Shown here one piece after another: positions 26,602 through 61,349 of a stretch of DNA of 64,000 bases. This DNA comes from Owenia fusiformis (lineage: Eukaryota; Annelida; Polychaeta; Sabellida; Oweniidae). The DNA is taken from the NCBI GenBank assembly GCA_903813345.2, contig CAIIXF020000011.1, positions 3,434,571-3,498,570 of the forward strand. The letters are read 5' to 3'. How positions within the stretch are numbered: position 1 is the stretch's first letter; every line of letters starts with the position of its first letter. A model generated the notes under the pieces. The model was not told the DNA's origin and did not search any database. It was given only the letters and a program-made list of their open reading frames with translations. The position numbers were made by a program, and so were the translations under genes.

Positions 26602-26979
26602 TTATGGCGATGACATCTTATACAAGGTGGTCTTAAGTCCACCAGTTTTAAGCCTTCTAACAAGATCATGTCCCTGCAGCTTGCGTTCTAAAAGCAAATA
26701 CTTTTTCTTGGTGTCTGTTGTGAAATGAATACTAGTTCCAAACCCACTTTCCTCGGCAACCTTTTGAATGAAGTCGCGTTCATCGTCAACAAAGTCCGGG
26801 TGGCAGTATGCCTCTAGCTGACAGCGACCCAGAAGGACCTTGAGCTTAGTTTTGTCTTCAAACTTCTTCAGAAATCTCTCGTCGTCATTGTCGAAAAGAT
26901 CACTGGGTTTGATTGTGTATACACTGTTAGATTCATCTCCTTCTGATTGCTCTGGGAATGGACATCCAATAATTGTTTT
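26602..26979 (-). CDS. dsRBD gene exon 16 (R3H-like C-terminus and stop)
   Basis: After ATGTTTCAG: KTIIGCPFPEQSEGDESN to KMSSP and TAA. The segment DDERDFIQKVAEESGFGTSI followed by KKKYLLLERK has the spacing of an R3H domain (RxxxH, small-Gly turn, then a basic strand), but the His is Gln. It is a tentative domain call within a secure exon. Confidence 0.8.
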   Translation of the reverse strand, partial: KTIIGCPFPEQSEGDESNSVYTIKPSDLFDNDDERFLKKFEDKTKLKVLLGRCQLEAYCHPDFVDDERDFIQKVAEESGFGTSIHFTTDTKKKYLLLERKLQGHDLVRRLKTGGLKTTLYKMSSP

Positions 26980-29900
26980 CTGAAACATTTTTTTGAATTG
27001 TTATTTATAAAATTCAATTTATTATTTAATTTTTTCAATTTTATTGAACTTGGGAAATTTTTGGCTCCAGAAACATTGTTTTTTCTGGAGGCAATTAAAG
27101 TTGAATAAGAAGAAAGTAAGCCAAGAAGAGTTATCAAAAGTAAACTTGAGAGGTGTTCTGGTTACAAAAGTTCATTTTACATTACTTGAATGGGTTATCA
27201 CTTATATGGTGTTTCAATTATGAATTATGTCCAAAACATAAAATTCAACTCACCAATATTCTTGGATTAGTAGGTAGAGCTTCAAATACTTGAGAAGCTG
27301 CATGTGCCTTTGCTTGGTCTTTAGTAAGTCCTCTTCCATCAGCCACTTTGTAGCCCTCTAATGACACATAACATCTACAACATCAATGGAAAACTTATTT
27401 GGAGATTTGGACTTTTGGACTTTTTGTTTAAGGTATTCAGTATTTGATACATTGTGTATTTGGTATTCAATGCTACTTTGTAGCCCTCTAATGACACATA
27501 ACATGTACAACATAAATGGAACACTTATTTGGACTTAACGTGTTTAAGGTATTCAGTATTTGATACATTGTGTATTTGGTATTAAATGCTACTTTGAAGT
27601 GCTCTAAGGACACATAACATCTACAACATAAATGGAACACTTATTTGGACTTAACGTGTTTAAGGTATTCAGTATTTGATACATTGTGTATTTGGTATTA
27701 AATGCTACTTTGAAGTGCTCTAAGGACACATAACATCTACAACATAAATGGAACACTTATTTGGACTTAACATGTTTAAGGTACTTAGTATTTGATACAT
27801 TGTGTATTTGGTATTAAATGCTACTTTGTAGCCCTGTAATGAAACATAACATCTACAACATAAACGGAAAACTTATTTGGAGATTTGGACTTAACATGTT
27901 TCAGTTATTTGATACATTGTGTATTTGGTATTCAAAACTACTTTGTAGCGCTCTAAGGACACATAACATCTACAACATAAACGGAACACTTATTTGGACT
28001 TATCATGTTTAAAGTATTCAGTATTTGATACATTGTGTATTTGGTATTCAATGCTACTTTGTAGCGCTCTAAGGACACATAACATCTACAACATAATTGA
28101 AAAACTTATTTGGAGATTTGCACTTAACATGTTTCAGTTATTTGATACATTGTGTATTTGGTATTCAATGCTACTTTGTAGCCCTCTAATGACACATAAC
28201 ATGTACAACATAAATGGAACACTTATTTGGACTTAACGTGTTTAAGGTATTCAGTATTTGATACATTGTGTATTTGGTATTCAATGCTACTTTGAAGTGC
28301 TCTAAGGACACATAACATCTACAACATAAATGGAACACTTATTTGGACTTAACGTGTTTAAGGTATTCAGTATTTGATACATTGTGTATTTGGTATTCAA
28401 TGCTACTTTGTAGCGCTCTAAGGACACATAACATCTACAACATAAATGGAACACTTATTTGGATTTTACATGTTTAAGGTATTCAGTATTTAAAACATTG
28501 GGTATTTGGTATTCAATAGTACTTTGTAGCACTCTAAGGACACACAATATCTACAACATAAATGGAACACTTATTTTGGACTTAACATGTTTAAGGTATT
28601 CAGTATTTGATACATTGTGTATTTGGTATTCAATGCTACTTTGTAGCCCTCTAAGGACACACAACATCTACAACATAAATGGAACACTTATTTTGGACTT
28701 AACATGTTTAAGGTATTCAGTATTCTGTGTAACAACTCAAAACTTTTTCATTTTTTAAACATCCATTTCCAAAGATGGCAATTCTGTAATCTTTATAAAT
28801 AACTAGATATTGTCTGATGTTCAATAGAAAAAAATTATTTAACAATTGAAAATATCCTGATACCCTAAAGTATCAGAATAGGACTTACAGGTGAACCATG
28901 TCATTGTTAATGACTGCCGACATATGTTTGTATTCTAAGAGCATGTTACTGAAGTCTGCACATCTGTCTAGAGATGTCATAGGATCCTTTAAGGGTACTT
29001 CACCATCTATTTCAACAATAATCAGCTCTTTAAAGTGGCGCTTTGATTTCCTGGTCTTGGTAATCTAAATTCAAGTATATCAAACAGTAAGGTAATATAA
29101 AAAGCGAGTTTCATAAACAAAAAATATCAAATTTGTAAACATGTATGTTTATTTTGTATGATTGATGTTGATTGTAAGTTAATTTTAAAGGAACACAAAT
29201 AAATGTTATTTAAAAAAATAATCAAACAGTTAAACATTGGTCAAATGAGGTTATAGTATCCTTCAAGAGTTGTTCATCATCCCCTTCTTCACTGATTTGG
29301 CTGTTGAATTTTCTAGTCCTGGTAATATTATATGTGTTAGGCTAGTGAATTTATCATTTGAGAGATTTAACTCTCTTTTCATTTTTGTACTTTAAATATT
29401 TTCACCATTTTGTAACATATTGCAAATCGTTATAATTCTACCTTGATCAGTATTAAGTTTAAACATGGATATCCAAAAGAAAATATATAAAATACTATAT
29501 AAATATACAGTGTACGGTATGAATATTACTTTTTATGTAATTGTCATTTTGATTCATGTCTTCAAAAAGCAGTGAATGGTATCTCACCTCTGATTGGTTG
29601 GATTCAGTTTCATCCAGCGTAAACTTGTTTGCCTTGACAAATTGCATATACTCTGGTTCAATCAGTTCATATTTCTTCGTCTTTCCACCTAATGCTTTAA
29701 CAGCCTTGAATATGTCTTCTACCGGATATTTGGTCTGAAATAACCAACATTGGTGTTTTACACGTAAATTCAAATGAAATTTATAAGACATGTTTCATTT
29801 GAATATTAAGTTCACGCACATGTAAAAATAACTGCAAAATACACTTTTAAAGTGTTACAACATTGAATATGCTTTGAATCTTTTAAATGTGATCTATACA

Positions 29901-32900
29901 TTGTTGGCATTTTTGAGCCTCCTTTCAAAATATTATGATCCATTTTGAGTGAATGGCCATTTTTATCATATTTTCAAATAAGGGTAATTTACTAAAACAC
30001 ATTTCAGACCTCGTCTGGTTCATCCATGCAATTCACAAACTCTACAAAAACAAATAAGTTCTAAGCGGAAAACTTACCTTAAATATAAGGTGATCCTTAA
30101 CTGCCTTTGATTTATGAGAGAGGTGAGGGAATGGGGCACATATCTCGCGCAGACGTTGTTTTTCACGCTGATTGAAGCCTTGATGAAAAACCAGGTCATC
30201 ATCTGAAGCCTGGTGATATACACAACAAAATATAATTAAAATTATAGTAATATACAAAGAAACTAACACCGAAATTTCAAAATATTGTTTTTCAAGTGTA
30301 ACCATTGACTGAATACATTATGTCTTAACCATAACCTACCTCCATAGTTGCCATTTTTTCTTCAATCTTGGCCATCTCCACCACTGTGAAGTCTCGATCA
30401 TTCGTTGGTACATCAGGCATAGGTAAAAACAGTTCCTCTGGTTTTATAATGTCTGGATACAGTTCAGATGTTTCTTCTAACTCCATTCTCTTAGCAATAT
30501 CATGAATCTGAAATAACAGTCAGTCAGGGTTTTTGGAATAAAAAAACACAAACAACCTTTTCATTTTTATATCTAATATCTGCATACATACGCTAATGTT
30601 GTAAAACCTTGCCAATTAGCTAATTGAAATCGATTGTAATTGTTAATATTAGAAATAAATTAATACCATGAAAAAAAACAGTCAGTTTTATGTTATCTAG
30701 AAAGTTTCCCTTTTTTGGCACAAGTCTTAAACAAAGCATTAACATGCAAAATGCTACTACCAGCCATTTGTTACAGACCCAAACCCTGACAGCTAAACAC
30801 CATCCACAATAATAATATGTCACCACTTGTGGTGATGATATAAAAATCCAATTTCACAAATATATTTTTAGCATCTATTTATACTGTGCTCAATAGGTGC
30901 CATTAGATCTAAAAATGGTGTCAACTTCATTCATATAAATCTGACCAAATGTGAGGTAATTTTTTCCAAATTGCTTAAAAGTAGGAGGCAGGTTTCATTT
31001 GTCATAATTATCACCAACATATAACATGCAGATCAAAATAGGTACAAACGGTTCAAACGGGTGATTCGATACTCTCTGAAAACTAACAGTCAACCGGTTA
31101 GTATTTTCCAAGCATCAGGTAAATGCCGATGCTTAGGGTACTTACTTTTACCGTCCAACATAGTTTCTGTAGTTTTCTGTAGACTACTTTGTCCGCCAAG
31201 TGTTTAGCCTCCGCTTGGGTAGACCCAAGTCCCCGACCCACAAGGATATCAAATACTCTTATGCTGCACCTAGAACATAAGCAAAAATAGGTACATCTAC
31301 ATTAGTATTTGCATTCTAAGTTTATTTAACATGGGAGTCAATGGTAGGAGAGAAGGGACCAAAAAAGTGTTCAGATTTGGAGGTGTTAAGATTAGTCAGG
31401 TGTTTGGATTCAGGGTTTACTCTGTAATATGTAGAGGTGTCACGGGTCAGATATCTTTCGGGTTGGGCAAGCAAAAAAGTGTGCGGTTGTGTCAAAAGAA
31501 AACAAACACAAACTATACCCATTCGTAATTTATACATATTCAAGAAAAAGAAAGCCAAAAGTTTGAAATTTTGCAGGAAATATAAAGAATTTTACGATAA
31601 TTTTTTATAATTCTGAGTGTTCCGACCCAACCCAAAATTGGTAAGAAGTTGTTCGTGACCCGAACCGAGCCCTATGACCCGAGATTTGGGTCGACTTTGG
31701 GTCGATGTGACCCCTCTAGTAATATGTAGTGTGTGACAGAAAACCTCCTCTAATAACATGAGGAATTTGTAAATTTACAATACTATAAAAACATATTCAT
31801 AATAATCTTAAAATACGCTTGATTAATACATAAGTACATTAATTATTAATCATGAATTTTAAGTATTTTCTCCACAAGAGATACACAATATAAGAAGTTT
31901 CTCCAGATTGTAAATATTGCACTATTAGAGAGGTTAAGCAAGGCAATTTTTTATGATTTGAACCGCAAACGTAAGCCTTTACGTTCCCGTTTACGTACTA
32001 TGAACAAAAGTGCTTTAAGCTGAGCAAACCTCAAAATGATTTTTTTTCTTATCGACCTTCGTTCTATTTTCTACTTTAAAAGTATAAAAAATATCATTTT
32101 ATTGACAAATTGATGAAAGTGTTTACCAAAGGAGATGTTTCACAGCCTGGCAGTGTTCTATGACATCTTGAATCTTACATAATACAACATAATACAACAA
32201 TAATATCTTTAATGTCTTTGAAGCATTCATAGTTTTATTACTATGGTGTCACAATATGTATAGTAGAATTAAGATGAGTTGACATGTGCGCAATATTGCC
32301 ATGCCCAGTTGCCATGCATGTAATCTCATCAGATTTTACATATGAAATGGGTGCCTCAATATTCAAGTTATATTTGATTAGATTGGACACCAATGATCGC
32401 GATATAAACACAGATTTGTGTCAAACATATTCATGCATTCTACCAATATCATATTTATCTCAATCAAACTTGATAAAGTACTAAAAATCTTTTACGGAAC
32501 GACCTACCTAGACTTTGATTTTTCACGTTTGGATGTACGTAAACCGGGAAATAAGTAGAACAATATGACGTCACATCCTGAGAAAAACCTGCGTGCGCCT
32601 TCCTGTTCGCGGTTAACGTTGTAAAAAGTAGTGTTGCTTAACCTCTCTATTATTAGGTCTTCTAGGTCAACAAATACATGAAATAGTACAGTTAATACTT
32701 ACATTGTAACCTCAAGGCCTCCTTTCAGAGTCACTGATTCAAAGGCGTGCTCCGTTTTAGCCAATGAGAATGTGGAACTCTCTTGTAAGATCATGCCTGC
32801 TTGGTAGCTGGGCTCATCTAATAAATAATGTACAATTGTAATAATATTCATTATTACTTGGGATAATATGGTATGATGTGGCATTGATGTACATCATTTA

Positions 32901-35900
32901 TACAGCTGTTGATTCACTACTCATACATACAAAAGGGTTATGTACTGGGAGGTTTTGGATATGGGGTTTATCCAGAGGGAGATATGCATATCAACCTGAG
33001 GGATCGTAAGGACCAAAGTGTTTCATTCATTAAATAGTAACATTTTTTGAACAAACAGTGCAGATTCTTCAGATCAACACTCATATCTTTTTAAAACAAC
33101 CTGCAGTCTTTTTTCTTGTACTTACTCAACATTTCTTTCTGAAGTTCAAAGTAGAACTCTGCCAGGTGGTGTTTTACGTCATCATAGTTTGAATCCTCAA
33201 ACAACTTACGCAGTCTATTATAATTAGTGGTTTTATTTTTGAAGGTGCGACTCACAATCAGACCATCAATGTTTTCCAGGGAAGGAGTTTGTAGCGTGTA
33301 GCGGGCACTATTGTAATCTGCAACAACAATCACTTTGATATTTAGCATTCTTTAGGCTTTAGTACATGTGATGGAATGCCATTGGAATCTACTTATGTAT
33401 GCAAAAGAAAGTGCCAAAGGCAAAGGAGAAACAGTTGTTACAGAGCGTAGCAAGAATGAGAAAAAATATAATTTTTTTTTAATTAGAGGTGTTTCATGAC
33501 TAACATGCAAAATATGACAGATACTTTCTAGAAATCTTAACTTAAATGTTGCAAAAAGTTATAATTGAAAATTCAATCTTTCAAAGTAAAGGAATCTATG
33601 CCAATTTCATGCCAATAGGGTCAGGACCAGGTTCAAACAAAATTCCTACAATTTTTTTTCCACAAAATTATGAATACAATGGCCATTCATGGATTGGTTT
33701 GTTTTGTGAAATTAGAAGTAGATTTCAATTTGAAAAATAAGTTGTACTAAATTATTGCTATTTCTAAGAAACATGTCATGCTCCGGCCAGTTCCCTAAAT
33801 TATACGATCGCATCACATGAATAAAATTTGAGAGTTGTAGAATAATCAGAATAAAACTTGCTGAGTTCTTGACAAGTAAAACCTTATTAAAAAACAATTG
33901 TAATTCTACAAAACAAGAGACAATTACCTCTTGGTAATAAGACCCTAAAATATCATAACATTAATCATACCTTTCTTTTCTAAGTGGCCTACGATTTCCA
34001 TGGCAGTCTGTCGCAGTGAGATGGCTAAATACTTCACCCCTTCTATATCTTTCTCTGTTGCCTTGAAGTCTTTCTTTATATACTCTTTAATCTCCTTGAA
34101 GTCTCCGTTAGGTGCAGTTTTGTCATAAATGAAAATTTCATTCAGTGGTTGATTCTCCTGGAAGAAACTGCACTTGCAATGAAACTGCACTTGCAATGAC
34201 ACTGCACTTGCAATGAAACTGCACTTGCAATGAAACTGCACTTGCAATGAAACTGCAATTGCAAATGAATTTGTATACAAATTTTCAGGCATTATATAAA
34301 TTCAATACTATATATTATCATCTTTGGTGAGCTATATGGTTTAAGAAAGGGCCAGCCAAGATTGAGATTGTGCTGGGCCATTTGTTTGTACTTCTTCAAT
34401 ATAAATACCTTCAAGTCTTTCAGTAACATGTCGAGGTTCTTGAGTACTTTTACAATTTAAATACCTTCAAGCCTTTCAGTAACATGTCGAGGTTCTTGAG
34501 TACTTTTACAATTTAAATACCTTCAAGCCTTTCAGTAACATGTCGAGGTTCTTGAGTACTTTTACAATTTAAATACCTTCAAGTCTTTCAGTAACATGTC
34601 GAGGTTCTTGAGTACTTTTACAATTTAAATACCTTCAAGCCTTTCAGTAACATGTTGAGGTTCTTGAAAATTTTAACAATATAAATACCTTCAAGTCTTT
34701 CAGTAACATGTCTAGGTTCTTGAAAACTTTTACAATATAAATACCTTCAAGCCTTTCAGTAACATGTCAAGGTTCTTGAGTACTTTTACAATTTAAATAC
34801 CTTCAAGCCTTTCAGTATCATGTCAAGGTTCTTGAGTACTTTTACAATTTAAATACCTTCAAGCCTTTCAGTAACATGTCGAGGCTCTTGAGTACTTTTA
34901 CAATTTAAATACCTTCAAGCCCTTCAGTAACATGTCAAGGTTCTTGAGTACTTTTACAATTTAAATACCTTCAAGCCTTTCAGTAACATGTCGAGGTTCT
35001 TGAGTACTTTTACGATTTAAATACCTTCAAGCCTTTCAGTAACATGTCGAGGTTCTTGAGTACTTTTACAATTTAAATACCTTCAAGCCTTTCAGTAACA
35101 TGTCGAGGTTCTCAAGTGCCCCTTCATTCATGGACCAAGGTTGAGCTGCATCACATCCCAGACTCTTCACTGACACAGGAAGTGGGTAATCTGTATTCCT
35201 CGGAAACAGTGTCGTTGGGTTTGTGTCTGCCATCTGACAATATAAAAGAATGTATGAAAAAATATGCAGAGATTCATTAAAAAAGTTAACTTTGTCAATA
35301 AAAGAAATATAATGGATTTTGGAAAAAGGCAAAAATTGGCTGTTGGCTGATGTTTATGAAAATCCTATCATATGCCTTACCAAGGTCATATCTAATGATG
35401 AACACAAGAAATGGTGTCAGTTTTTTAGTTGGATTAAAAAATGATCGGAAAACTGATTCTGCATGATATAAGTCAACTAACTTACCTTTACAGTTGGAGC
35501 TGTCAGTCGCAAATATGTCAATGCATTTTGAGCTGCCTCATTCTGTGCTTCGCTTGCTGTATGAATTATATCCGAACCAGATTTCCCGACGCAACGCATG
35601 GTGTGTAGGCCAAGAGTTCCAATGAAGGCTTCACACCTGAAAAAGTACAAAAATATAGTTTAAAACTACAAACATAACATCAAACATGGAAAATAAACAT
35701 GAAAATAAACATGGAAAATAATCACCACCTGCCATTTGTAACAGATGGCAATTGCAAAACACAAACTGCCGCTTCCTTTATAAACCAAAAGCTGGTAGGG
35801 TTTAGATAAAGTCCCCTTTGCATTAATTTGACTTCACTTCCTATAAGAGAGCTGTCTTCACTCTTTCAGTTTACAATAACTCTCTGATCTCACCAAGGCG

Positions 35901-38900
35901 ATCAGAGTTTGTCGTTAAAATAGGGACAACTTTCTATTTGGTAATTTCCTCTGACATTATCGCATAGTTAATGAGCATGTATTTTGTTCCTTCCACTTCG
36001 CTGACTGGTTGAGAAAGTGTCAGCGTGGTAGATTTGAAATGATTTATTTCCTTGGCTGTCACAGGCACCAATATTTTGGTCTGCTAAACTGTAATATAGT
36101 CTATACAAGGCAAAGGGTAGTTTATAACTAGACTCTGTGTGCAGGGTGATATTAAAGGTCTAATGAGGACACATTTGAGGGTGATCACTGCAACAGAGTC
36201 TGTCAAACTATTACTCACTTATTAGTTTCACTCTCACTATTTGGTTCACTGGCATCTTCCAGAACTAGTTGTACAAGACATTGACTAAATGTGCCTGATT
36301 CAAGCAGCTTAATCAAACTATTACTCACTTATATGTTTCACTCTCACTATTGGGTTCACTGGCATCTTCCAGAACTAGCTGTACAAGACAATGGCTAAAT
36401 GTGCCAGATTCAAGCAGCTTAATCAAACTATTACTCACTTATAAGTTTCACTCTCACTATTGGGTTCACTGGCATCTTCCAGAACTAGTTGTACAAGACA
36501 ATGGCTAAATGTGCCAGATTCAAGCAGCTTAATCAAACTATTACTCACTTATAAGTTTCACTCTCACTATTGGGTTCACTGGCATCTTCCAGAACTAGTT
36601 GTACAAGACAATGGCTAAATGTGCCAGATTCAAGCAGCTTAATCAAACTATTACTCACTTATATGTTTCACTCTCACTATTAGGTTCACTGGCATCTTCC
36701 AGAACTAGTTGTACAAGACAATGACTAAATGTGCCTGATTCAAGCAGCTTAATCAAAATAGTACTCACTTATACGTTTCACTCTCACTATTGGGTTCACT
36801 GGCATCTTCCAGAACTAGTTGTACAAGACATTGACTAAATGTGCCTGATTCAAGCAGCTTAATCAAACTATTACTCACTTATACGTTTCACTCTCACTAT
36901 TGGGTTCACTGGCATCTTCCTGAACTAGTTGTACAAGACAGTGACTAAATGTGCCTGATTCAAGCAGCTTAATCAAACTATTACTCACTTATAAGTTTCA
37001 CTCTCACTATTAGGTTCACTGACATCTTCCAGAACTAGTTGTTCAAGACATTGACTAAATGTGCCTGATTCAAGCAGCTTAATCAAAATAGTACTCACTT
37101 ATACGTTTCACTCTCACTATTGGGTTCACTGGCATCTTCCAGAACTAGTTGTACAAGACAGTGACTAAATGTGCCTGATTCAAGCAGCTTAATCAAACTA
37201 TTACTCACTTATAAGTTTCACTCTCACTATTGGGTTCACTGGCATCTTCCTGAACTAGTTGTACAAGACAGTGACTAAATGTGCCTGATTCAAGCAGCTT
37301 AATCAAACTATTACTCACTTATAAGTTTCACTCTCACTATTTGGTTCACTGGCATCTTCCAGAACTAGCTGTACAAGACAGTGACTAAATGTGCCTGATT
37401 CAAGCAGCTTAATCAAACTATTACTCACTTATAAGTTTCACTCTCACTATTGGGTTCACTGGCATCTTCCAGAACTAGCTGTACAAGACAATGGCTAAAT
37501 GTGCCTGATTCAAGCAGCTTAATCAAACTATTACTCACTTATAAGTTTCACTCTCACTATTGGGTTCACTGGCATCTTCCAGAATTAGCTGTACAAGACA
37601 GTGACTAAATGTGCCAGATTCAAGCAGCTTAATTGTAGGTGAGGTTTCTTTATCAGTCTCCAGAACAGCAAAGTCCTAGAAATAATAATTATACAATAAT
37701 TAGATTCATAAAATTATAAACAGCAGTCAGGGAGAATAGAATATTAGTACAATAAATACATAGGTAAGGTCAACTATGGTAAGATTGACAGGTCCCAAAT
37801 CAGAGGTCACATGACCAGTGACGCCAGACACAAGTTGTAAGTCAGTTACCAAAATTAGTAATGGGCAATTTTTCGAAATTGATAATATATTTTCTGATTA
37901 TTCTCATTTGTTTATGTACAGAGAACAACCGTCATTCCTAGATCACATGGTACAAAATGTTTAATATCACATGAAAACTTATTCAATTGTGGACTTATTA
38001 ATTCTTGAAATAAGCATACCTTAAATGAGACCTGAGTTTGCCCTATCAGTCCAGCCATGTTGGAGATCTTAGTATGTCGCTTCCCACGTGTGAAGTGATC
38101 AAAATCAGTGTTATTGAAGTGAAACTTCTCTTGGAGATGAATGCCCCGATTTTGGAAGAAATCTGGAGGTTTTTGCCTAATCTGTTTAATAGCGGCATCA
38201 ACTGCATCTTTCCTCGCTTCTTTCTTCGAGCTGCCTCTAGCGCTCTCAATGAATACAGCACCGATGTAGATACTAGCAGAGACGGAACTAGTCGCAGATG
38301 TGGAGTATTTGTAGACCAGTGTATATGAGAGTCTGTTTGAGTTGCAAAGGTCAGCGAGTTCCTCGTGATGGTCATCTCGTTTCTCGTCGAATTTTTTTGG
38401 GAGTGATTGCTTGACCCGCGAGAATTTTATGTGATATGGAGCTTCCTGTGGAGGTACAGCAGCTCCACCACGTCCTCTCCCTCCTGCCAGTGGCAATGGG
38501 GGTACGCCTCGCCCCCTTGGAATCATACCATGTCCACGAGGGTCCATCCCTCGGGCTCTCATGGCCATCATACGTCTTCTCATCACTGCATGTCTTGCCA
38601 TTAAAGGATCTACAGGACCTAACATACCCCTAGCTCGTCCCCTCCCCGCCATACCCCAGCCTGGAGCCATCATTCCACGTACACCCCGCCCTCTTGGTGG
38701 AATCATACCACGGCCTCTCGGTGCAAATCCTACATCATAAAACTCATCTTCAAAATCATCCAGTCCCATGTCATAGTCATCATATTCCTCCTCAAATCCA
38801 ATATCACCACCTTCATCCATAGATTGGCGCATTAATGCTGTATTTATCTTGTCCACATTTGACGTTCCCATGATTCTTTGCTGTCGCGCTTTGGCTAATT

Positions 38901-49960: not shown

Positions 49961-49969
49961 TATAAGGAT

Positions 49970-51490
49970 TTTTTCTCTAAAATGGACCCACATCTAGGGT
50001 TTTTCTTTCAAAAATAGACCACTTCAAGCTCAAGGTAATTTTTTAAAAACAAGACCCACTTCAGGCGATTTTTTCAAAAACAGTATGTCTATGTCAATAA
50101 TCTGCAACACGGCTAATAAGCCCATATAAAGCAGATATATAATTTAACCCATATCTAGGGTTTTTTCTTCAAAATGGGTTATTGGGTTATAGGTTACTGC
50201 CATACATGTATAATTTTACCAGGATTGTAAACACAAGCATCCAGCTTAGGCAGAAGGTCACGTGATCACCTCTTCAAAAACAGGTATCATTGGTTAACTC
50301 TTGGAGAACGTGTGCTTGTGATTGATCATGTGATCATATTGTGCTATTTGATTGGTCATCGTATAGATTTTTAGACTGATGTACATAATTCAGAAAATGT
50401 CATCCATTGCCAAAACTCTGACTGGATCTTACCTGTCAACAAGACACAGTCAAATGAGCCTAATCAATTCAATGACAGTTACATTTATTATTTCAATTGA
50501 TAGGATACTATAAGACTCTTGTCAATATAGCTGTGCAAGTTCAAGTCACCAAGAGCTAATTAAGGCGAGAATGGAGAAATAAAACAGGTAACTTTATTTT
50601 TGGAATTCCTGTTTCCAATCCTGGTAAAATTATATGGCAGTAAGCCTCGTAAGAAACGTTGACTCAAGTCCATGTATTTGGTGCAAAAAATCCTCTGGGA
50701 TTCCCACAGGACAGACCATAAAGTTGTCAGACTAACTTGTAGTCAGTCTCAGTCTGTCTGAATGCAGACTAAGGAGTTCCCTCATTGGTCTGAATCCCAT
50801 TTGCCTGAATCAAACTGGTCTGAAACACAATGGTCCGAATCCCAATCGTCTGGATTTTTGACAGAGCTGGCAGAATTCAGTGGGAACCATATTTGTAGAC
50901 TCATTAAAACTGTGCAGTCATTAGAGAAAATACAATAAATTAAATATCTGTCTAAAAGAGACTTAATGGACAATATCGTCTAGGTCTGTCCCCCTGACAA
51001 TCACGAAGGTCCATTATAATTGCTCATAATATTTTACACACCTAAGATATATCTTGAGAGCATATTGAGGGCACAGTATCACCAATATTTTGAGAAAATC
51101 AACAGAACAACCAACTGTCGGATAAAACGCAATTAGTCCAAATCAACATACAACCATTTTATCTATACAATGAAACCCTTGAAAGAACCAAATGTAACTA
51201 AGTGTTATGCAGAAAGATAACTAGAAATGTGTTGTGGTTCAAAAATAAAAAAAAAATTTCAATTTCATTTAGACTTTATTACTACCCAGGAGAAAAGTAA
51301 TATCTGTGAACAATCATCAAATTGATTGCGTTAGGAATAAGTTGAGGCTTCAAAGTACATCTTTTAGGGCCAAAATATCAGGGGGTTACTCTAATTGTGT
51401 TTTTATCAGACATTGCACCTTTAAGTGTGTGTGTTGAGCATGGTTTTTGGAAAAAAATTGAAAATGCATATATTCACTTATTCATACAAC
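49970..51490. other. upstream of the zinc-finger gene
   Basis: Near 49970-50170, short repeats of ACCCACATCTAGGGTTTTT and TTTCAAAAATAGACC are seen. Near 50760-50860 a GGTCTGAATCCCA-type short repeat occurs. Promoter and 5'UTR exons of the zinc-finger gene must lie here, but none can be placed. Confidence 0.4.
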
Positions 51491-51507
51491 ATCTTTATTT
51501 CAGAAGC

Positions 51508-52164
51508 ATGGAGAAACCAAGCACAAGATCCTCCCAGAGGAAACGCACAAGATCAAGTCGTCTCACTTCCCTAGAAGATTTACCAAGTGGAAAAAACAAT
51601 GAGCCTAAATCATCAAATGAAAAAGTTGAACCAAATAAGAAAAATAGAAAAGTTAACGATGATCCAGGAAATGACTTGAAAGCAAATAATGATAAAAAGC
51701 CTAGTGCATCTAGTAAGAATACGGAAAAAGGTTTCCAGGGTAGACATTTAGAGAAGAAAAATAAGGATACTCTGAAGGAAATTGATACAGATGATAGAGG
51801 GAGCACAAAGCCTAATAATCTTACGAGGAAAAATGTATCACCTAAGAAAAGTGACATGGTTGGTGATGACGCAGTTGATTCGAAAACAGTAGAGAATAAC
51901 AGTAATGATGCTAAAATGAGTGCAGAAGTCACTGAGGAGGGTAATGACTGGGTAGTCAGAATTGGTCAGAATAAAGAATTAATATACACCTCTAAAACAC
52001 CTGATAAAAAGAATGTTAATGTGTCTCCTAAAAAGAATGGTGAATTAAGTGATGAAGTGAATCGATCAAAATCAATGATTGGTGCACCAAATCAGAATAG
52101 TGAAGTTTCTGAAGATGGGGCAAAGGGTGTTACAAGGTCTGGGAGGAAAATTAAGCCCAAGAAG
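51508..52164 (+). CDS. zinc-finger gene exon 1 (disordered, basic)
   Basis: TTTATTTCAG|AAGCATGG precedes it, so a 5'UTR exon lies upstream. It encodes 219 residues rich in Lys, Ser, Asn and Asp, ending TRSGRKIKPKK|GTGAAT. The larger open frame starting at 51397 runs through the intron and is not used. Confidence 0.75.
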
Positions 52165-55100
52165 GTGAATCTACAATTATACCCTTTTCAAATTTTATTT
52201 AGTATAGGGCAATCACTTGTGGATTAGTTCATAAATAATGTACTCTTGAGCAAAAAATAATCCTTGACTGATTTTCAATATCATTCATTATCAACAATTA
52301 GATTATGTTTATCAAAATTCAGCTTTACATGATTTTTATGCATTTATAAGTGCTTACATCTATTTCAAATATTCAACTCCAATGAAAGACATTTCTATTT
52401 TTGTGTTTTTGTGATCTTATCAGCTCTGATATTGTACGTCCTAGTGAATCTATGTAATTTAATTTACTTCCAGATTTATTCCGATGTTTTAGCCTTTGTA
52501 AAGAATAAACGAGAGACTGCATCCAAGCCCAAAACTCAACACTCTTCTGGCTCAAGCAATTTTAAATCTATAAGGAATCTTCTCAACAATATTCCCGAGC
52601 AAAAACAAGATGATAACAACCCTACCGAACATACTATTGATGATCAGCAGCAGGTGAATGTTGAAGGTTACATCGAGCCTAACAAACTACCAGAATCCAT
52701 CACAATCGAGACTCTGGAGGTTCCGATTGCCACAGGAAATGACGCGGGGGATAATCAGGTCGGCATACAGGAGAGTCAGACCGTCATAAATATTAATCTG
52801 GGTAGTGCCCAGTTACAGGATGTTGGGGTTGTTGCTCAAGAGCTTACTGCGACTATTGATAAGTCTAATGAAGCAGAGGCTGGACTATTTAATGTTGTAG
52901 AAAGTGAACATAATACAACAGAAGGGCAGACTATTGCTTATCAGTATGTAGAAGACAGCAATGCTATCCCAAGTGAAAATCAGGAAAATTCTACAGCAAT
53001 GGAATCTGGTGCTATAGAGGGTGAAACTGTAATTTTACAAGGCCAACCTGTCACATTAGAAAGTCAAGGAGTCTCATTAGGAAGTCAAGATGATACCACA
53101 TTAGAAAGCCAAGCTGCCACATTTGAAAGTCAAACAGATGCTAGCCCAACTGTTAAAATTACAAGTATTGAACCAGAAATCGATGGGTATATTCTTCAAC
53201 AACATAGTGCCCAGAATACAAAGGTAACTTCATACAAATTTTGTATTTTTATTTCACCACCACATGCTCATATTTCAGTTGACTGAGATTAGATGTTGTT
53301 ACAATGGCTGTGACTATATTACAGTACATTCTTGTATTTCAGTTGATTATATATGTGGCTATACTGGCTGTTAGTACATTACAGGGCTTGTATTTCAGTT
53401 GATAGAAATTAGATGTGGCTACAATGGCTGTGACTACGTTTACACCTCAAGTGAAGATATGAATCAGCATTTACAAGAGATGCATAAGCCTGGGCAAGCT
53501 GAGGAGGCTTCGAAAAATGTACAGTCTACTCTACAGGCAGTTTCTGATGAACGGCATCCAGGTTATTAATGTACCCTTTGCCAGAGGACAACTTTGGCAA
53601 AAGGTACTGTTAAGATTAATGATAAATAATTAAACCAATCAGTGCTCATTTCTCTTGTCCTTCAAAGTGAATTTTCTGTATATGTTGACATAATATGCAT
53701 CTGTAGAGCTCCAATTACTTTAAGATCAAATTGTAAAGTAGTCAGAGCAAAATGAATGGCATATTTAGTGTACTGTTGTCCTTATATATACCTAGCAGGC
53801 TCGTAGACAGGATTTACCAGGGGGGAGCAGTTTTACCAAGGGGGAAGTTTTTGCCAAATTTTTGCCAAGAGGGGGCTTTTTGACATTTTTTGGCAAAAAA
53901 TCAAGTGCTCAGAATGGTGAAAAACTGCATGATTTTGAAATAATTTCTGGCCAGGGGGGGGGGGGGCAGCCGCTCGCTCCGCTCCCCCCTGGCTACGGGC
54001 CTGCCTAGTAGATAAATATGAGTTGATTAGTTTTCTGAGGTAGCTATTTAACCATAACAAAATTAAATTTGTTTTTCCACGACTATTGATAACATTACAC
54101 CATCCCTTAATGAACAATATCAATTTATTTCAAAACAGTGAAAAAGACAACGGAATTAGATGACCAGAAAACAGAAGTAGAATACACCTACAATGATGAA
54201 ATGTACCATCAATTTCTGGAAGATGAGAGAGTATACATGTGTACTATATGTATATTTATAACATTATATCATCCCTTAATGAACAATATCAATTTATTTC
54301 AAAACAGTGAAAAAGACAACGGAATTAGATGACCAGAAAACTGAAGTAGAATACACGTACAATGATGAAAAGTACCATCAATTTCTGGAAGATGAGAGAG
54401 TATACATGTGTACTATATGTATATTTATAACATTATATCATCCCTTAATGAACAATATCAATTTATTTCAAAACAGTGAAAAAGACAACGGAATTAGATG
54501 ACCAGAAAACTGAAGTAGAATACACGTACAATGATGAAATGTACCATCAATTTCTGGAAGATGAGAGAGTATACATGTGTACTATATGTATATTTATAAC
54601 ATTATATCATCCCTTAATGAACAATATCAATTTATTTCAAAACAGTGAAAAAGACAACGGAATTAGATGACCAGAAAACTGAAGTGGAATACACCTACAA
54701 TGATGAAATGTACCATCAATTTCTGGAAGATGAGAGAGTATACATGTGTACTATATGCTCATATAAGGAGAGGAACTGGAAAAAACTTTTGGCGCACCTG
54801 AAAAGTCATCAATCTTTTAAGCCGTATGTTTGCACCAATGGACATGCGGAGCCTTATAAAAGTAAGAAACAAACAGCTGATGACATTACAATTTTGTAAG
54901 ATGGGCTAGAAAATACTCAACTCAAAAATTACCTAAACTGTATATATTGATAAATGGGGGGGATGATCAATAAGTAATGGATGCTTTATCACACATATGC
55001 TATTTATAGACCAATCTCTCTTTTTTACCTTTTCTGCTGTGTGGTTTTAACTGTGAATATGGTAATTTGAAAATCGACTTAGAACTATTTGTATGTGTTG

Positions 55101-58100
55101 TATATCCTCTGACCCCCAAGGGGTAGCATAGGCCATTAAAGACTTGAGATATTCCTTATTTGAGCTGCCTCTAAGTACAATATGATGTGTCACTAAAGAT
55201 TCACAGTGGTGTGAGGATTCATGTATGCACAATGACCCAAGGGGTAGCAAAGGCCTGTAAATACTTGAAATGTTTCTCGTTTTAGCTTCCTCTAAGTACA
55301 ACATGATGTGTCACCTAAAGATTCACAGTGGTGTGAGGAACCATGTTTGCACGATTTGCAATAAGGCATTCTCTTTCAAACACAAGGTAAATATGAGATC
55401 ATTAACCTCTTGAATACCAGCCTCTAAAAAGGGTTTGAAACCAGAGCATTTTCCATTTTCTGCTATTTTACTGGATATTTACATCTAAAAACACAATGTT
55501 TGATATTTGATTTCATAAGAATAGTAAACATAGACCCCTTATATACATTCTAAAACATAATTTGTGAAGATTGGATAAAAAATGCCAAAGTAAGAGCAGT
55601 TTTAGTGAAAAATTCTGTGACAGATATATCTGTCGCTCTGGGTTCCAAATGGATTTCATTTGTGACAGATATATCCGTCATTCTGGGTATTCAAGAGGTT
55701 AAATAATATGAAATATTGAAATGAAATAAAACAAAACAATACTTTTTTATCTTTTAAAAATTTAATGTCACCACCAGAAGTGATGAAATATGATAAAGTT
55801 TCAAAAATTTTGTGACCAGTGATCAGTAGTTGTGGTTAAATAGTGTGTGTGTGTGTAGCAGTGTTGAGCATTTGTTCTAAATGGCAGGTGGTGACATTTT
55901 GTTAATGTCTTGTTTCATCATTATATTGATGTTATGATATTTTGATAGCGGTCATTTATTTTTACATGAAAACATCATTAAGTACACTACCATTACCGAT
56001 TCATTCACCAATATGTACACCCTGTATATGTGCAACAATTGATTTTGTTAGTACATCAACTGAAATACTCGATTCTGATTGGTTGATTAGCAGTCAACAA
56101 TATGTACAACAGTAGTTTCTCAGTTAACAGTCTCGGTATACAATTTTGCCGGTTGACCTCTTGAGAGGTCAACAATTGTATACTATTGTTTTTTATGTTC
56201 TATGAATGTTTTAGTTGACAGTTCATATGCAGTACCATAATAATGTAAAGAACCATGTATGTAGTCAATGTGGCAAGACATTCAACAATACATGTACACC
56301 CTGTATATGTGCAACAATTGATTCTATTGTTTTTATGTTCTATGTATGTTTCAGTTGACAGTTCATACGCAGTACCATAATAATGTAAAGAACCATGAAT
56401 GTAGTCAATGTGGCAAGACATTTTCCAATACATGTATATGTGAAACAATTGTTTATTTCAGTTGACAGTTCATATGCAGTACCATAATAATGTAAAGAAC
56501 CATGAATGTAGTCAATGTGGCAAGACATTCACCAATAATTGTATCTGTGAAACAATTGCATTTTTCAGTTGACAGTTCATATGCAGTACCATAATAATGT
56601 AAAGAACCATGAATGTAATCAATGTGGCAAGACATTCAACAATACATGTGTATATGAAACAATTGCATTTTTCAGTTGACAGTTCATATGCAGTACCATA
56701 ATAATGTAAAGAACCATGAATGTAGTCAATGTGGCAAGACATTCACCAATAATTGTATCTGTGAAACAATTGCATTTTTCAGTTGACAGTTCATATGCAG
56801 TACCATAATAATGTAAAGAACCATGAATGTAATCAATGTGGCAAGACATTCAACAATACATGTGTATATGAAACAATTGCATTTTTCAGTTGACAGTTCA
56901 TATGCAGTACCATAATAATGTAAAGAACCATGAATGTAATCAATGTGGCAAGACATTTACCCAGTCGTCGGATCTCAAGAAGCATGTGAGCGGTGTACAT
57001 ACCAATGGTATGTACCTTCTTATGTATTACTATATCTAGTACCTTCAAGGAGGGCGTGTTGGGATGATAGTGTAAAGCACCACAAATATAGTCAATTTAA
57101 GAAATGAAATTAAGATTATGACGGGTTTTTCCTAAGGGTGGATTTTTGGGTTACTTTGACCCAGGTCATCATTTGTATGCATATCTTGTATGCATACAGT
57201 GTGTCGAATGAATATGTTTTCCCCCTTAATTTCTAAAGTTCGAACCTTGGTGCATGAATTTCCATTTTTGAGAGTATTCAACTGTTAGAAAAATAGCAAA
57301 ATCGAACTTTACATTTAAGATTTGACCTTCAGTGACATTTTCAAGGTCAGAAAAAGATACAAGTAAAAAAGATCAAAAGGGTATTTTTTCTACTTGCTTC
57401 AAATTGACTAAATTCTTTTTTTCAAAATCATTTACAAGTTATTAGAAGTCCAAAACTGACTTTAGATTTAAGATTTGACCTTCAATGACCTTTTCAAGGT
57501 CAAAAAAGGTCAAAAAGGTATTTTTCAACTTGCTTCAAGTTTTTCTCAAAAGTTCAAATCTGACTATAGATTTGACCTTCAATGATATTCTCAAAGACAA
57601 AAAAAGATTTGACCTTCAGTGACCTTCTCAAGGTCAAAAAGGACTTTTTTCAACTTGCTTCAAATTGACCAAATTTTTTCAAAATCATCTACAAGTTCTC
57701 AGAACTTAAAAATCTGACTTTAGGTTTGAGATTTCACCTTCAATCACCCTCTCAGGGTCCAAAAAGGTATTTTTTTCATCTTGCTTCAAATGACCAAAAT
57801 CATCCACAGAGTTCTCAGAAATTTAAATCTGACTTAAGATTGAACTAAAAATAATATTGTGAGCAACTAGGTGGTGACTTTGTGTCATGTTAATGCCTTG
57901 TTATATATGTATGGTATGCTTTCAGTGAGGTCATATGAGTGTTCGATTTGTGGCGAGGCATGGAAGAACAAACAGACTTTAACCAGACATGAGAAAACAC
58001 ATGGGGCACGGAAGAGTTTGAAATGTGATGTAAGTTTCGAAAGAGAATCCATTTCCTTAAATATAGTATCAGATCTAGCAAAGAGAAGTCAGAGAAAGGA

Positions 58101-61097
58101 TATGGTAGTGCTTGACACAAATGTTGTTTCGTTTTTAGAACATTTTTTGTTCATATTATCATTCCTTGTCAAGTCTTTTTTCTGAAAAACCCCAAAATGT
58201 ATACTTAAATTAATAAAACTTAAGATTTTCACAATTATGTGCAGTTCATTTTTCGGGACTATTTCTATTCAATTTGCAATAACTTACAAAGTGGTGACAT
58301 TTTGTCATGTAAGTCGCCTTGTTTTTATGGTTGTTATTTTTCAGGTTTGTGGTAAAGGATACACTTCTAAACAGACTCTCTCACTTCACAAAAGATCCCA
58401 TTTTATGCTGTACCATTGCGAGATATGCGACAAAAGTTTCTCAAGTTATTCAGGGTTCATGTAAGGAGAAAATATTAATCCTTTGTAAATGTTTTTACTC
58501 ACAATATCAACTTTGTTTGAAGTAAAAGTGTTAAGAAATATAGTGTAGTGTAGTGTAGTTTAATGAAGTTAAGTATATGATAAACTTTGTTTTTTAACTT
58601 AAGTAGTGTAGTGTAGTTAGTGTAGTTTAAGGAAGTTGAGTATAGGGGCTACTACCTATCTGATTTCCTCAATGTTTACAAATTGTAATGTCCATTCATT
58701 TGTATAGATGTATACTACACGTATGGTCACTTTATATACATTAAACATAAACATTCAAATTTAACAATTATATTCCAGGTTTTACAATTGTTCTGTATAT
58801 TTAGAAATGCAGGTTGTACATTTGTATTTCAGGGCTCATAAAGCAATGCACAACCATGATGATTTTGTATGTTTAAACAAATATTGTACATTTGTATTTC
58901 AGTGCTCATAAAATTTTGCATGACAATGATGGTTTTGTATGTTAATATACAGGTTGTACATTTGTATTTCAGGGCTCATAAAGCAATGCATGACCATAAT
59001 GGTTTTCTATGTTTAAACAAATATTGTACATTTGTATTTCAGCGCTCATAAAATTTTGCATGACAATGATGGTTTTGTATGTTAATATAAAGGTTGAACA
59101 TTTGTATTTCAGGGCTCATAAAGCAATGCACAACCATGATGGTTTTATATGTTAATATACAGGTTGTACATTTGTATTTCAGGGCTCATAAAGCAATGCA
59201 TGATCATGATGGTTTTGAGTGTGAACTTTGCAATAAAATACTGATGACTAAGGGCAGGTGTGTATTGATTTGTAGTTAGAGCCTTTCGATAGTTTTAAAG
59301 TATTCGCCATTTTAGAAAAAGTGTAGATATTGCCAATGGAGGGCCAAGTCTTGTTTTAAAAAAAGTGACATGACAAGTTATTCAGTCTCTGTGATTTTTC
59401 AAAAACACAATGTACCTTATATTTCTTGATGAAATTAGGAAACACCACAATTCAAAGTAATTTATGACAAAGAAAGAAAGCAAATCGAGAACCATTTTGA
59501 TTAAAATGTATCAAGTATCAAAAACTATAGAGTAAAATGTTTGACTATTTCTGTTTTTTTAACATAAATATTTCTTTCTGAGAGGATTAGAGGAAGCATC
59601 AGATAGGAATGATTGTATAGGAAAGAAAAAGTTGTAGGGCCTCAAAATATTGGCCATTTTGGGCATAACTTTGCCTTTTTGGGACTTTTCTGGTCAAATT
59701 ACCACAAAATGGGCTTCAAATGTTCAAAATTTGGGCCCAAATTTAGGTTCTGGATACACCAGTGGTGTGCACATGTATATATATAAGAAGCACCCTAAAT
59801 AAGTATTTTATTCCTTTCAGTCTGAAGAGACACCACATAGTGACACACTCAAACATGCGACCATTCCTTTGTCCATTGTGTCAAAAAGCACTTAAGTCGA
59901 AGGAAAGCTTAGCTGTAAGTTTAACATGCTTATTCTTTGAAATAAAAAAATTATAAAAAAAAGTTTGATTGTTGCATTATCTCTGTTTTATATGCCATGA
60001 AATAGTAATGGCATATTTCAGGTTCATATACCAACGTAGCCATTAATGGTAATATCTCAGATTAATATGCCATAATAATGACTATACATCAGTTAGACGT
60101 ATAAAAGAGAATCCCCTCTCTAGTCAATCATGGCCTTAGAATCACACTATGAATTATAATTGTCAAAGGATTATGCTACTCTAAAAATGAATATGCCATT
60201 GAATCTACATGTAAGTTACAATATTGATTCGATCTTTGATTTCAGCAACATATGATTACCCACAATTCCGACAAAACTTTTGAGTGTCCTGAATGTGGTT
60301 TATGTGTCAAACGACTGGACACACTACAAGTTCACATGCGGATCCATCAACAGAAGAAACCGTACAACTGTGATATATGCCACAAGGGATATACCCAGAA
60401 AAATGCGTTAATTCGGCATATGGAAACCCACTCTACATCTGTGATGACTGGTACACTTTTCAATTGCAGCACTTGCGATGAATCATTAACCAGTCGCCAA
60501 GCTCTTCAGAACCATATTGTAGAAGAACATCTGAGTGAAGATCTCCGTGATAATAAAAAAGCTGAAAATGAAAACGAGGCTGCCATCGCAACAGCTGAGC
60601 CCTCTATCGGAGAGCTTATGTGGGTGTGTGAATTATGCGAGGAATTATTCGTATCTCAGGACACCCTTGCGGTTCATATATTATCGATGCATATGAAGCA
60701 TGGCCTTGTTCTACAGGGAGAAAATGCTGGAAATCAAACGAATGTCAGCCTCGAAACTGGGGATCTAGAAACTTCTGAAACTCAGCCAAGTGTCAGCCTT
60801 GATACTGGGAATCTAGAAACTTCTGAAAATCAGGAAAATGCCAGCCTTGAGTCTGGGGATCTAGAAACTATAGATAACAATGAATACCTTGTAGAAAACG
60901 CAGAGGAGAGAATGGAAACTATTGAGAAAAGAATCAATGAGGGTGTTGATAATAAAACACATGATACAATTGTTGTTCATGTGAATGATACAACAATACA
61001 AAAGGGTGAGATCATTACGACTCCCCTTACACATGCAGTGGACAGCATCATGACTGACCAAGTTGAAGAGGGTGAAATACTAGCTGCCATGCAGTAA
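51508..61097 (+). CDS. C2H2 zinc-finger protein (11 coding exons)
   Basis: Exons: 51508-52164, 52474-53223, 53399-53561 (or to 53603), 54646-54861, 55286-55386, 56890-57007, 57926-58029, 58345-58460, 59183-59257, 59821-59914, 60246-61097. Phases agree throughout, giving about 1081 aa with the short exon 3. The first ~469 residues are disordered: Lys/Ser-rich (RSSQRKRTRSSRL, KKNRKV) and then Gln/Glu/Thr-rich. About 13 C2H2 fingers follow from residue ~475 on. Many are built across introns, for example CEICDKSFSSYSGFM|AHKAMH and CTICNKAFSFKHK|LTVHMQYH. Expected to be a nuclear DNA- or RNA-binding regulator. The linkers are not the TGEKP type of KZFP arrays. The tail is acidic with three SLETGDLETSE-like repeats. 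Five acceptors and the stop region carry tandem arrays. The start is the first Met after acceptor TTATTTCAG. Identity of the orthologue is unknown. Confidence 0.85.
52474..53223 (+). CDS. zinc-finger gene exon 2 (disordered, Gln/Glu/Thr-rich)
   Basis: CTTCCAG acceptor; IYSDVLAFVKNKRETASKPK at the start, AAG|GTAACT at the end; 250 codons, phase 0. It holds short LESQ/GSQ-type repeats (VTLESQGVSLGSQ, TTLESQAATFESQ). No folded domain seen. Confidence 0.78.
53279..53440 (+). repeat. 3-copy array over the zinc-finger exon 3 acceptor
   Basis: TATTTCAG|TTGA followed by a diverged copy of exon 3 start (AGATGTGGCTACAATGGCTG or similar) occurs at 53279, 53343 and 53399. Only the last continues into the exon. 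The first two are more diverged than in other arrays, suggesting an older event. Confidence 0.75.
53399..53603 (+). CDS. zinc-finger gene exon 3 (first finger; two possible ends)
   Basis: LIEIRCGYNGCDYVYTSSED then MNQHLQEMHK is a C-x4-C...H-x4-H finger. Two donors, CCAG|GTTATT (end 53561) and AAAG|GTACTG (end 53603), lie 42 nt apart in the same phase. Only the short form avoids the in-frame TAA at 53567-53569. After the TAA the frame reads CTLCQRTTLAK, finger-like. Neither donor is strong. Confidence 0.6.
53796..54003. mobile_element. MITE with CAGGC termini and 5-bp TSD
   Basis: Left CAGGCTCGTAGACAGG and right CCTGGCTACGGGCCTG are inverted, flanked by CCTAG at 53791-53795 and 54004-54008. 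The G- and C-homopolymer interior is non-coding. hAT-like termini are suspected, but no transposase is present. It lies in intron 3 of the zinc-finger gene. Confidence 0.75.
54092..54757 (+). repeat. 4-copy array over the zinc-finger exon 4 acceptor (169 bp)
   Basis: TTTCAAAACAG|TGAAAAAGAC recurs with exon-like starts at 54139, 54308, 54477 and 54646 (exact 169-bp steps). Each unit has 111 nt of exon 4 start, and the copies are nearly identical. The first three then switch to GTATATTTATAAC instead of GCTCATATAAGG. The fourth is the functional exon. Confidence 0.93.
54646..54861 (+). CDS. zinc-finger gene exon 4
   Basis: VKKTTELDDQKTEVEYTYND, then finger CTICSYKERNWKKLLAHLKS H, then KPYVCTNGHAEPYK and donor A|GTAAGA. 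The second Cys-containing motif continues into exon 5 with irregular spacing, so that finger is probably degenerate. Confidence 0.8.
55100..55335 (+). repeat. 2-copy duplication over the zinc-finger exon 5 acceptor (121 bp)
   Basis: CTGCCTCTAAGTACAATATG at 55165 duplicates CTTCCTCTAAGTACAACATG at 55286, with matching upstream intron (AAGGGGTAGCA-AGGCC). The upstream copy has TTTGAG in place of TTTTAG and a TAA in frame, so it is decayed. Confidence 0.85.
55286..55386 (+). CDS. zinc-finger gene exon 5
   Basis: SSKYNMMCHLKIHSGVRNHV and CTICNKAFSFKHK|GTAAAT. The finger is completed by exon 6 (LTVHMQYH). Confidence 0.8.
55764..55898. mobile_element. short MITE (AATGTCACCACC termini)
   Basis: AATGTCACCACC at the left and GGTGGTGACATT at the right, 135 bp overall, non-coding. 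Similar GTGGTGACATTTTGTCATG ends appear near 57870 and 58290. Confidence 0.55.
56205..56965 (+). repeat. 7-copy array over the zinc-finger exon 6 acceptor (107 bp)
   Basis: TTTCAG|TTGACAGTTCATATGCAG recurs with exon-like starts at 56215, 56355, 56462, 56569, 56676, 56783 and 56890, i.e. 107-bp steps after a first 140-bp step. Each unit has ~72 nt of exon, including codons for ECxQCGKTF, then AAACAATTGCATTTTTCAG intron. The first copy has TTTTAG. Minus-strand ORFs here are by-products. Confidence 0.93.
56890..57007 (+). CDS. zinc-finger gene exon 6
   Basis: LTVHMQYHNNVKNHECNQCG, then KTFTQSSDLKKHVSGVH and AATG|GTATGT. It supplies the His half of one finger and all of the next (C-x2-C-x12-H-x4-H). 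Confidence 0.85.
57300..57840. repeat. diverged tandem repeat rich in TCAAGGTCA
   Basis: About four to five diverged units of TTTGACCTTCAGTGACCTT, CTCAAGGTCAAAAAGG and CAACTTGCTTCAAATTGACC. It lies within intron 6 of the zinc-finger gene. No coding potential. Confidence 0.7.
57926..58460 (+). CDS. zinc-finger gene exons 7-8
   Basis: Exon 7 (57926-58029) encodes CSICGEAWKNKQTLTRHEKT H and LKCD|GTAAGT. Exon 8 (58345-58460) encodes VCGKGYTSKQTLSLHKRSH and CEICDKSFSSYSGF AT|GTAAGG. The CD|VC split finger and the GFM|AHKAMH finger are both completed across introns, which confirms the splicing. Confidence 0.85.
58817..59224 (+). repeat. 6-copy array over the zinc-finger exon 9 acceptor (70 bp)
   Basis: TTTGTATTTCAG|GGCTCATA (or TGCTCATA/CGCTCATA) recurs exactly every 70 bp with AG at 58831, 58901, 58971, 59041, 59111 and 59181. 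Units contain ~34 nt of exon 9 start (AAAGCAATGCATGACCATGA). The intronic copies then read GTATGTT, where the real exon has GAGTGTG. Confidence 0.93.
59183..59914 (+). CDS. zinc-finger gene exons 9-10
   Basis: Exon 9 (59183-59257): AHKAMHDHDGFECELCNKIL then MTKG|GTGTGT. Exon 10 (59821-59914): SLKRHHIVTHSNMRPFLCPL then CQKALKSKESLA|GTAAGT. The fingers CELC...HHIVTH and CPLC...HMITH span the introns with canonical spacing. Confidence 0.83.
60246..61097 (+). CDS. zinc-finger gene exon 11 (last fingers, acidic tail, stop)
   Basis: QHMITHNSDKTF, then fingers CPECGLCVKRLDTLQVHMRI H, CDICHKGYTQKNALIRHMET H, CSTC...HIVEEH and CELC...HILSMH. The tail carries three ~55-60-bp coding repeats (VSLETGDLETSE, VSLDTGNLETSE, ASLESGDLETID) and ends EEGEILAAMQ, TAA at 61095-61097. 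Confidence 0.87.
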   Translation, partial: QHMITHNSDKTFECPECGLCVKRLDTLQVHMRIHQQKKPYNCDICHKGYTQKNALIRHMETHSTSVMTGTLFNCSTCDESLTSRQALQNHIVEEHLSEDLRDNKKAENENEAAIATAEPSIGELMWVCELCEELFVSQDTLAVHILSMHMKHGLVLQGENAGNQTNVSLETGDLETSETQPSVSLDTGNLETSENQENASLESGDLETIDNNEYLVENAEERMETIEKRINEGVDNKTHDTIVVHVNDTTIQKGEIITTPLTHAVDSIMTDQVEEGEILAAMQ

Positions 61098-61230
61098 TAT
61101 TATTATGGACAGCATCATGACTGATCAAGTTGAAGAGGCTGAAATACTAGCTGCCATGCAGTAATATTATGGACAGCATCATGACTGACCAAGTTGAAGA
61201 GGGTGAAATACTAACTGCCATGCAGTAATA
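61038..61230 (+). repeat. 3-copy duplication of the coding end and stop codon (65-66 bp)
   Basis: GGACAGCATCATGACTGACC through GCCATGCAGTAATATT occurs from 61040, 61106 and 61171. The first copy carries the actual C-terminus and stop. The next two lie in the 3'UTR and repeat both codons and stop. Confidence 0.92.
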
Positions 61231-61349
61231 TTTATAATCCTTATACATCATGAGATATCACAGTGTCCAATCAGTAAAAACATTCTTTGCAAACCAGAGA
61301 TGGTCTGAGTATCAGAATTGTCCTAATATGGACTTATGCATGTCTCTAG

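Follow-up and report, generated by a model that had tools for sequence, protein, structure and literature searches.

The window analysed here, a stretch of 64,000 nucleotides from the 498 Mb genome of the annelid Owenia fusiformis (contig CAIIXF020000011.1, positions 3,434,571 to 3,498,570), holds two neighbouring genes in which several exon ends lie within tandem arrays (Table 1). One gene is referred to as the dsRBD gene, its product having a match to the dsrm Pfam family that lies right at the cut-off (23 bits), while the other is a C2H2 zinc-finger gene. Both gene models were re-derived base by base, with two edges adjusted to preserve the reading frame (the start of dsRBD exon 15 at 27374 and that of zinc-finger exon 5 at 55286). 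Each gene comprises a complete spliced frame without interruption, and 25 of the 25 introns are of the GT-AG type.

Table 1. Genes, exons and tandem arrays in the window (positions in window coordinates; ZF, zinc-finger)
Feature	Position	Strand	Description
dsRBD gene	26602..46928	-	16 exons, 1125 aa; one open frame, GT-AG introns
dsRBD exons 1-8	46882-46928, 42020-42141, 38020-39047, 37539-37675, 35486-35636, 35081-35233, 33971-34157, 33126-33317	-	
dsRBD exons 9-16	32703-32817, 31146-31269, 30340-30507, 30078-30209, 29588-29734, 28889-29064, 27254-27374, 26602-26979	-	
C2H2 ZF gene	51508..61097	+	11 exons; one open frame, GT-AG introns; zf-C2H2 matches
ZF exons 1-6	51508-52164, 52474-53223, 53399-53561, 54646-54861, 55286-55386, 56890-57007	+	
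ZF exons 7-11	57926-58029, 58345-58460, 59183-59257, 59821-59914, 60246-61097	+	
Array, acceptor of dsRBD exon 15 (edge 27374)	27345..28724	-	116-bp unit, ~12 copies, ~32 bp exon per unit
Array, donor of dsRBD exon 6 (edge 35081)	34388..35112	-	56-bp unit, 13 copies (32 bp exon + 24 bp intron)
Array, donor of dsRBD exon 4 (edge 37539)	36203..37633	-	110-bp unit, 13 copies (95 bp exon + 15 bp intron)
Array, acceptor of ZF exon 3 (edge 53399)	53271..53437	+	60-bp unit, ~3 copies
Array, acceptor of ZF exon 4 (edge 54646)	54084..54757	+	169-bp unit, 4 copies (112 bp exon + 57 bp intron)
Array, acceptor of ZF exon 5 (edge 55286)	55115..55352	+	121-bp unit, 2 copies
Array, acceptor of ZF exon 6 (edge 56890)	56170..56961	+	107-bp unit, ~7 copies
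Array, acceptor of ZF exon 9 (edge 59183)	58810..59217	+	70-bp unit, ~6 copies
Array, ZF stop codon (stop at 61097)	61039..61232	+	64-bp unit, ~3 copies
31-bp array in dsRBD intron 1 (contrast case)	44267..44813	.	off edges

With Tandem Repeats Finder, applied with a minimum unit of 30 bp and a minimum score of 100, 17 arrays were found in the interval 26602-61232, nine of which lie over an exon edge or the stop codon and eight elsewhere (at 39823, 40479, 41755, 44267, 48674, 49798, 57568 and 60741, the last within zinc-finger exon 11). An earlier sequence-only reading had placed eight named splice edges and a triplicated zinc-finger stop region in such arrays, with units of 56 to 169 bp and 2 to 13 copies; the rebuilt gene models and the repeat finder bear this out. 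The eight off-edge arrays contrast with the single one inside the interval, and one past it, that it had recognized. That the intact copy always adjoins the exon body, as that reading had noted, is a matter of geometry, common to any tandem duplication across an edge, and carries no weight as evidence. The exon parts of the arrays at dsRBD exon 15 and zinc-finger exons 3, 5 and 6 were assigned by hand, and the array at dsRBD exon 15, for which the finder span begins at 27425, was extended by eye to 27345 across a diverged copy.

The introns contain other repeated sequences. A 17-bp array of about six copies (34164-34269) immediately precedes the acceptor of dsRBD exon 7 and, falling under the 30-bp unit limit, was not counted. 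CCATGG-rich palindromic stretches in dsRBD introns at 39777-39945 and 41700-41890 form an inverted pair, sharing 101 of 180 12-mers in inverse orientation and 2 in direct, and are perhaps a small mobile element. Intron 1 of the same gene carries an inverted repeat (46230-46340 against 46740-46830, with 45 of 80 12-mers in common in inverse orientation), and zinc-finger intron 3 was seen by eye to hold an insertion-like stretch with a poly-G run at 53790-54010.

Because an array grows from one duplicated unit, chance overlap was judged preferentially by placing the original unit in sequence from which the arrays had been collapsed. The edge arrays were listed manually once they had been inspected, and for this list the null predicts 2.3-2.6 edge arrays in the window against the nine of 17 seen (P = 7e-5 to 2e-4). 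When the arrays are placed at their final length, a null that is too generous to chance, 4.3 to 6.0 are expected to touch an edge (P = 0.007 to 0.055), or 3.8 if the exon is required to extend past the array (P = 0.002). It should be emphasized, however, that the window itself had been noticed for its edge arrays, and an independent sample was therefore taken. The first part of this sample consisted of 34 windows of 7.5 kb at kinesin and myosin genes, selected by a rule that is blind to repeats and was applied by hand (a kinesin or myosin gene with at least three matched exons within 10 kb). Five windows were added last, on one dsRBD gene and four additional kinesin genes. Exon predictions came from a simple gene finder whose training set comprised both genes of the window and Pfam-matched exons. 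Of 96 Pfam-matched stretches entered, some of which had served in training, it found 92. Two predicted 'exons' that were reading frames of arrays (L021 859-1403 and L010 55-667) were removed, and the exon edges in L006 and L011 were set from Pfam matches together with the sequence. One array whose unit begins at a donor (L010d) was scored as non-edge, while two with 4 bp of exon (L019 and L023) were scored as edge.

In the first 34 windows 13 of the 29 arrays lie over an edge, where 5.0 to 6.0 are expected across three exon thresholds, and the five further windows add two of three. The whole sample of 39 windows, again scored from the hand-entered list, thus gives 15 of 32 against 5.4 expected (P = 3e-5), and omission of the richest window leaves 12 of 27 against 4.1 (P = 9e-5). 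In the first 34 windows the excess is retained when only Pfam-supported exons are considered and scoring is automatic (9 of 29, 2.9 expected; P = 8e-4). Arrays overlap edges more often than under random placement both in the window and in other genes on other contigs. In total the sample contains 15 edge arrays to 324 predicted exons, and its 32 arrays show 76-100% identity. A further kinesin gene on contig C2 (L035), which we take to be KIF4-like, surfaced in the kinesin search with an acceptor covered by an array of 18 copies. It was placed outside the chance test, although the gene meets the selection rule, since the array had led to it, and was kept in the variant counts described below. 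One kinesin gene (L010; C6:40703546-40711045) carries five arrays in 7.5 kb, three of them scored as edge.

It could be argued that the excess reflects a mutational process that favours tandem duplication at exon-intron junctions, acting for example through RNA-DNA hybrids or through breaks where base composition changes. The presence of the excess in both window and sample agrees with such a process, as do three donor arrays whose units begin 0-4 bp from the donor site (L010 1-712, which is L010d; L019 1429-1598; L023 4637-4772), with the result that their copies start donor-like. In the sample, however, the excess is restricted to expanded arrays: of those with at least three copies, 14 of 21 are at edges against 3.9 expected, a value reached in none of 500,000 draws, while those with fewer show 1 of 11 against 1.5 expected (Fisher P = 0.003 between the copy classes, the three-copy cut having been picked after the data were seen). 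In the window the arrays scored below three copies are in excess (5 of 12, 1.7 expected), which speaks for targeted duplication, bearing in mind that the copy classes use the first listed period and so place zinc-finger exons 6 and 9 in this group, although shorter units give them 5.7 and 5.8 copies. Edge and other arrays show no significant difference in copy number itself (P = 0.09). A second point against targeting is that the position of the edge within the unit does not depart from uniform (P = 0.12 in a KS test of 24 arrays after unit correction, L010d excluded; P = 0.48 as first measured on 23 arrays, four with mis-measured units), and no fixed breakpoints relative to splice sites were seen. 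A third is that both kinds of junction are affected, with nine donors and 14 acceptors among the 23 tabulated arrays. We therefore regard duplication aimed at junctions, which the sequence-only reading had suggested, as rather unlikely. The pattern of copy classes and edge positions leans towards birth at random with better expansion or survival at edges, although it falls short of proof because the weak arrays of two copies may have arisen in more than one way.

Variants in the surplus copies bear on how the arrays are maintained. Copies from 20 edge arrays were aligned to the working copy, L010d, L019 and L023 being omitted for their exon parts of 0-4 bp. The exon parts contain 55 synonymous and 65 nonsynonymous variants, where 28.3 synonymous are expected, and none of these 120 variants is a stop (4.4 expected). 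For the 15 arrays of four or more copies, a distinction was made between variants shared by at least two copies and variants confined to a single surplus copy. The shared class is strongly biased towards synonymous change, with a synonymous to nonsynonymous count of 27:15 where 10.0 synonymous are expected (P = 3e-8). The single-copy class, which may include assembly errors that would look neutral likewise, is distributed as under neutrality (9:28, 8.6 synonymous expected), and the two classes differ from each other (Fisher P = 6e-4). The shared synonymous fraction is 0.64, with a bootstrap range over arrays of 0.43-0.83 and all leave-one-out P values at or below 2.1e-5. The signal is, however, uneven, being strong in dsRBD exon 4 (8:2) and the C2 kinesin array (6:1) and absent from dsRBD exon 15 (1:4) and zinc-finger exon 9 (2:5). 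In two held-out arrays the bias was in the right direction but weak (shared 2:3, single 1:6), and one of the single variants was a stop. In 18 of 20 arrays, splicing at the closest surplus site would either break the reading frame or run into a stop, which makes translated alternative copies unlikely for these 18 and leaves little room for codon selection on the surplus copies where they lie. Shared variants with a synonymous bias, in copies whose use would break the frame, have thus probably passed through the working copy, where they once stood, and array and exon end probably exchange sequence with the working copy as the filter.

The mode of this exchange is less readily modelled. Divergence from the working copy did not rise with distance from it in the 11 arrays tested, contrary to growth from the exon end alone. 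Simulations, which were simple and small, gave synonymous fractions of 0.28-0.35 for block duplication and 0.36-0.43 for conversion in the three settings with more than 20 shared variants, all below the 0.64 observed; the other five conversion settings produced 2 to 11 shared variants with fractions from 0 to 1. Shared, synonymous-biased variants may reflect concerted evolution within a cluster, yet simple exchange models underpredict the extent of the bias.

An alternative that invokes no special process is that duplications occur at random, those in exons are purged, and those at edges remain recognizable for longer because the exon part of one copy changes slowly. Consistent with this view, identity is higher in edge arrays (P = 0.007), copy cells differ from the working copy about half as often in exon as in intron (173/8505 against 174/4589), and sample arrays of at least ten copies are no rarer off edges (5 of 17) than at them (5 of 15). 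Restricting chance to tolerated placements, however, barely lifts the expectation, from 5.04 to 5.19, and slow decay alone is insufficient to make shared variants synonymous far beyond neutrality while private ones look neutral; we consider this alternative unlikely. The sequence-only reading had also suggested that surplus splice sites are held as reserves, and they could be useful or regulatory sites under selection. Indeed, a changed splice dinucleotide is seen in just 4 of 274 copy cells, where the intron rate predicts 11.9 (3 events against 6.5), AG or GT being intact in the other 270, so that the copies do carry splice signals, and in one array (L038) AG is kept by 17 of 17 surplus copies. 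Intact sites are, however, equally predicted by passage through the working copy, and the signals are not uniformly kept: both donor bases vary among the copies of L002, and in L039 the G of AG is present in seven of 13 surplus copies and replaced by T in one, with five unaligned. Private variants, moreover, look neutral, and the nearest surplus site yields an open, in-frame product in just 2 of 20 arrays. A role as reserves thus appears very improbable. It might finally be argued, given that tandem arrays are difficult to assemble and that these are known from one assembly, that the arrays are artefacts; their occurrence in many genes and contigs, the variety of their units and the spread of identity among the sample arrays make this extremely improbable, and a codon-level bias is not expected from an assembly error.

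The reading we favour, with a probability of about 0.58, is that these are exon-edge minisatellites of the kind termed 'mirages', in which duplication is random, sequence is exchanged with a working copy and arrays persist longer at edges. Under this model a short tandem duplication would arise at random, and where it spans an exon edge the copy adjoining the exon body would keep the normal splice site while the extra copies drop into the intron with little harm. The adjoining copy gives the shortest exon and would be the one favoured by exon definition, leaving the others presumably silent in splicing. The working copy, constrained by selection, would go on exchanging sequence with the rest by unequal crossing-over or gene conversion; such exchange could hold the array uniform, in keeping with the higher identity of edge arrays, and make expansion and persistence likelier than for a purely intronic duplication, and expanded arrays would thereby accumulate at exon edges.

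Duplication of an exon edge has a precedent in human CBS, in which a 68-bp insertion duplicates such an edge. The insertion, 844_845ins68, lies at intron 7-exon 8 and is masked by splicing, and gene conversion from carrier chromosomes has been proposed (PMC2630376, in its available text). It is a single two-copy variant of one gene, in contrast with the recurrent, multi-copy arrays of O. fusiformis. Intron gain by tandem duplication, as presented in the accessible part of PMC4974935, likewise ties intragenic tandem duplication to intron-exon structure, but makes a new intron, whereas the arrays here sit on an existing edge. The closest parallel is with the lancelet 'mirages', described in the available text of PMC3087553 and PMC3902484 as minisatellite-like tandem repeats across exon-intron boundaries in the Adh3, globin, TnC and PGBD5 genes, which affect donors and acceptors, have units of 10-160 bp and copies with AG/GT signals, and undergo concerted evolution within a cluster. 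The O. fusiformis arrays resemble them in spanning exon-intron boundaries (eight in the window and 15 of 32 in the 39 further windows), in affecting both donors and acceptors, in their varied units and in the AG/GT of their copies. They differ in belonging to another animal group, one whose muscle myosin scores closer to that of scallop (229 bits) than to vertebrate myosin (205 bits), in that the edge excess has been measured in a gene sample blind to repeats, and in the synonymous footprint in the surplus copies, neither measure being reported for lancelets in those portions of the two papers. The kind is thus already known, and what is new is its occurrence in another animal group, the measured excess and the codon footprint. 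Queries of open-access full text, made with no annelid or mollusc terms, returned no general account of edge arrays beyond the lancelet papers. Among annelids, the earthworm metallothionein gene has intronic minisatellites and exon duplications, with no edge arrays described in the accessible text (PMC12783039).

This study bears on the relation between satellites and coding sequence in that, should the ratio of edge arrays to exons in the sample extend genome-wide, several percent of exons would adjoin arrays of their own copies, and exon-end variation, splicing and protein change would be coupled to satellite turnover. More tentatively, and with some doubt, many exon ends across the genome may both pass sequence to, and receive it from, intronic satellites built of their own copies, with the exon end filtering what spreads and the array forming a standing store of variant ends that could be copied back into protein. 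Such loci lend themselves to asking, in a natural setting, how spliceosomes choose one of many identical sites, how introns evolve and how non-coding copies convert coding sequence. A different form of repetition within a gene was seen on contig C9 (G000; C9:37986009-37994334), where twelve consecutive matches to one myosin-head stretch (profile 18-84) follow one another; we presume that these are probably mutually exclusive muscle myosin exons.
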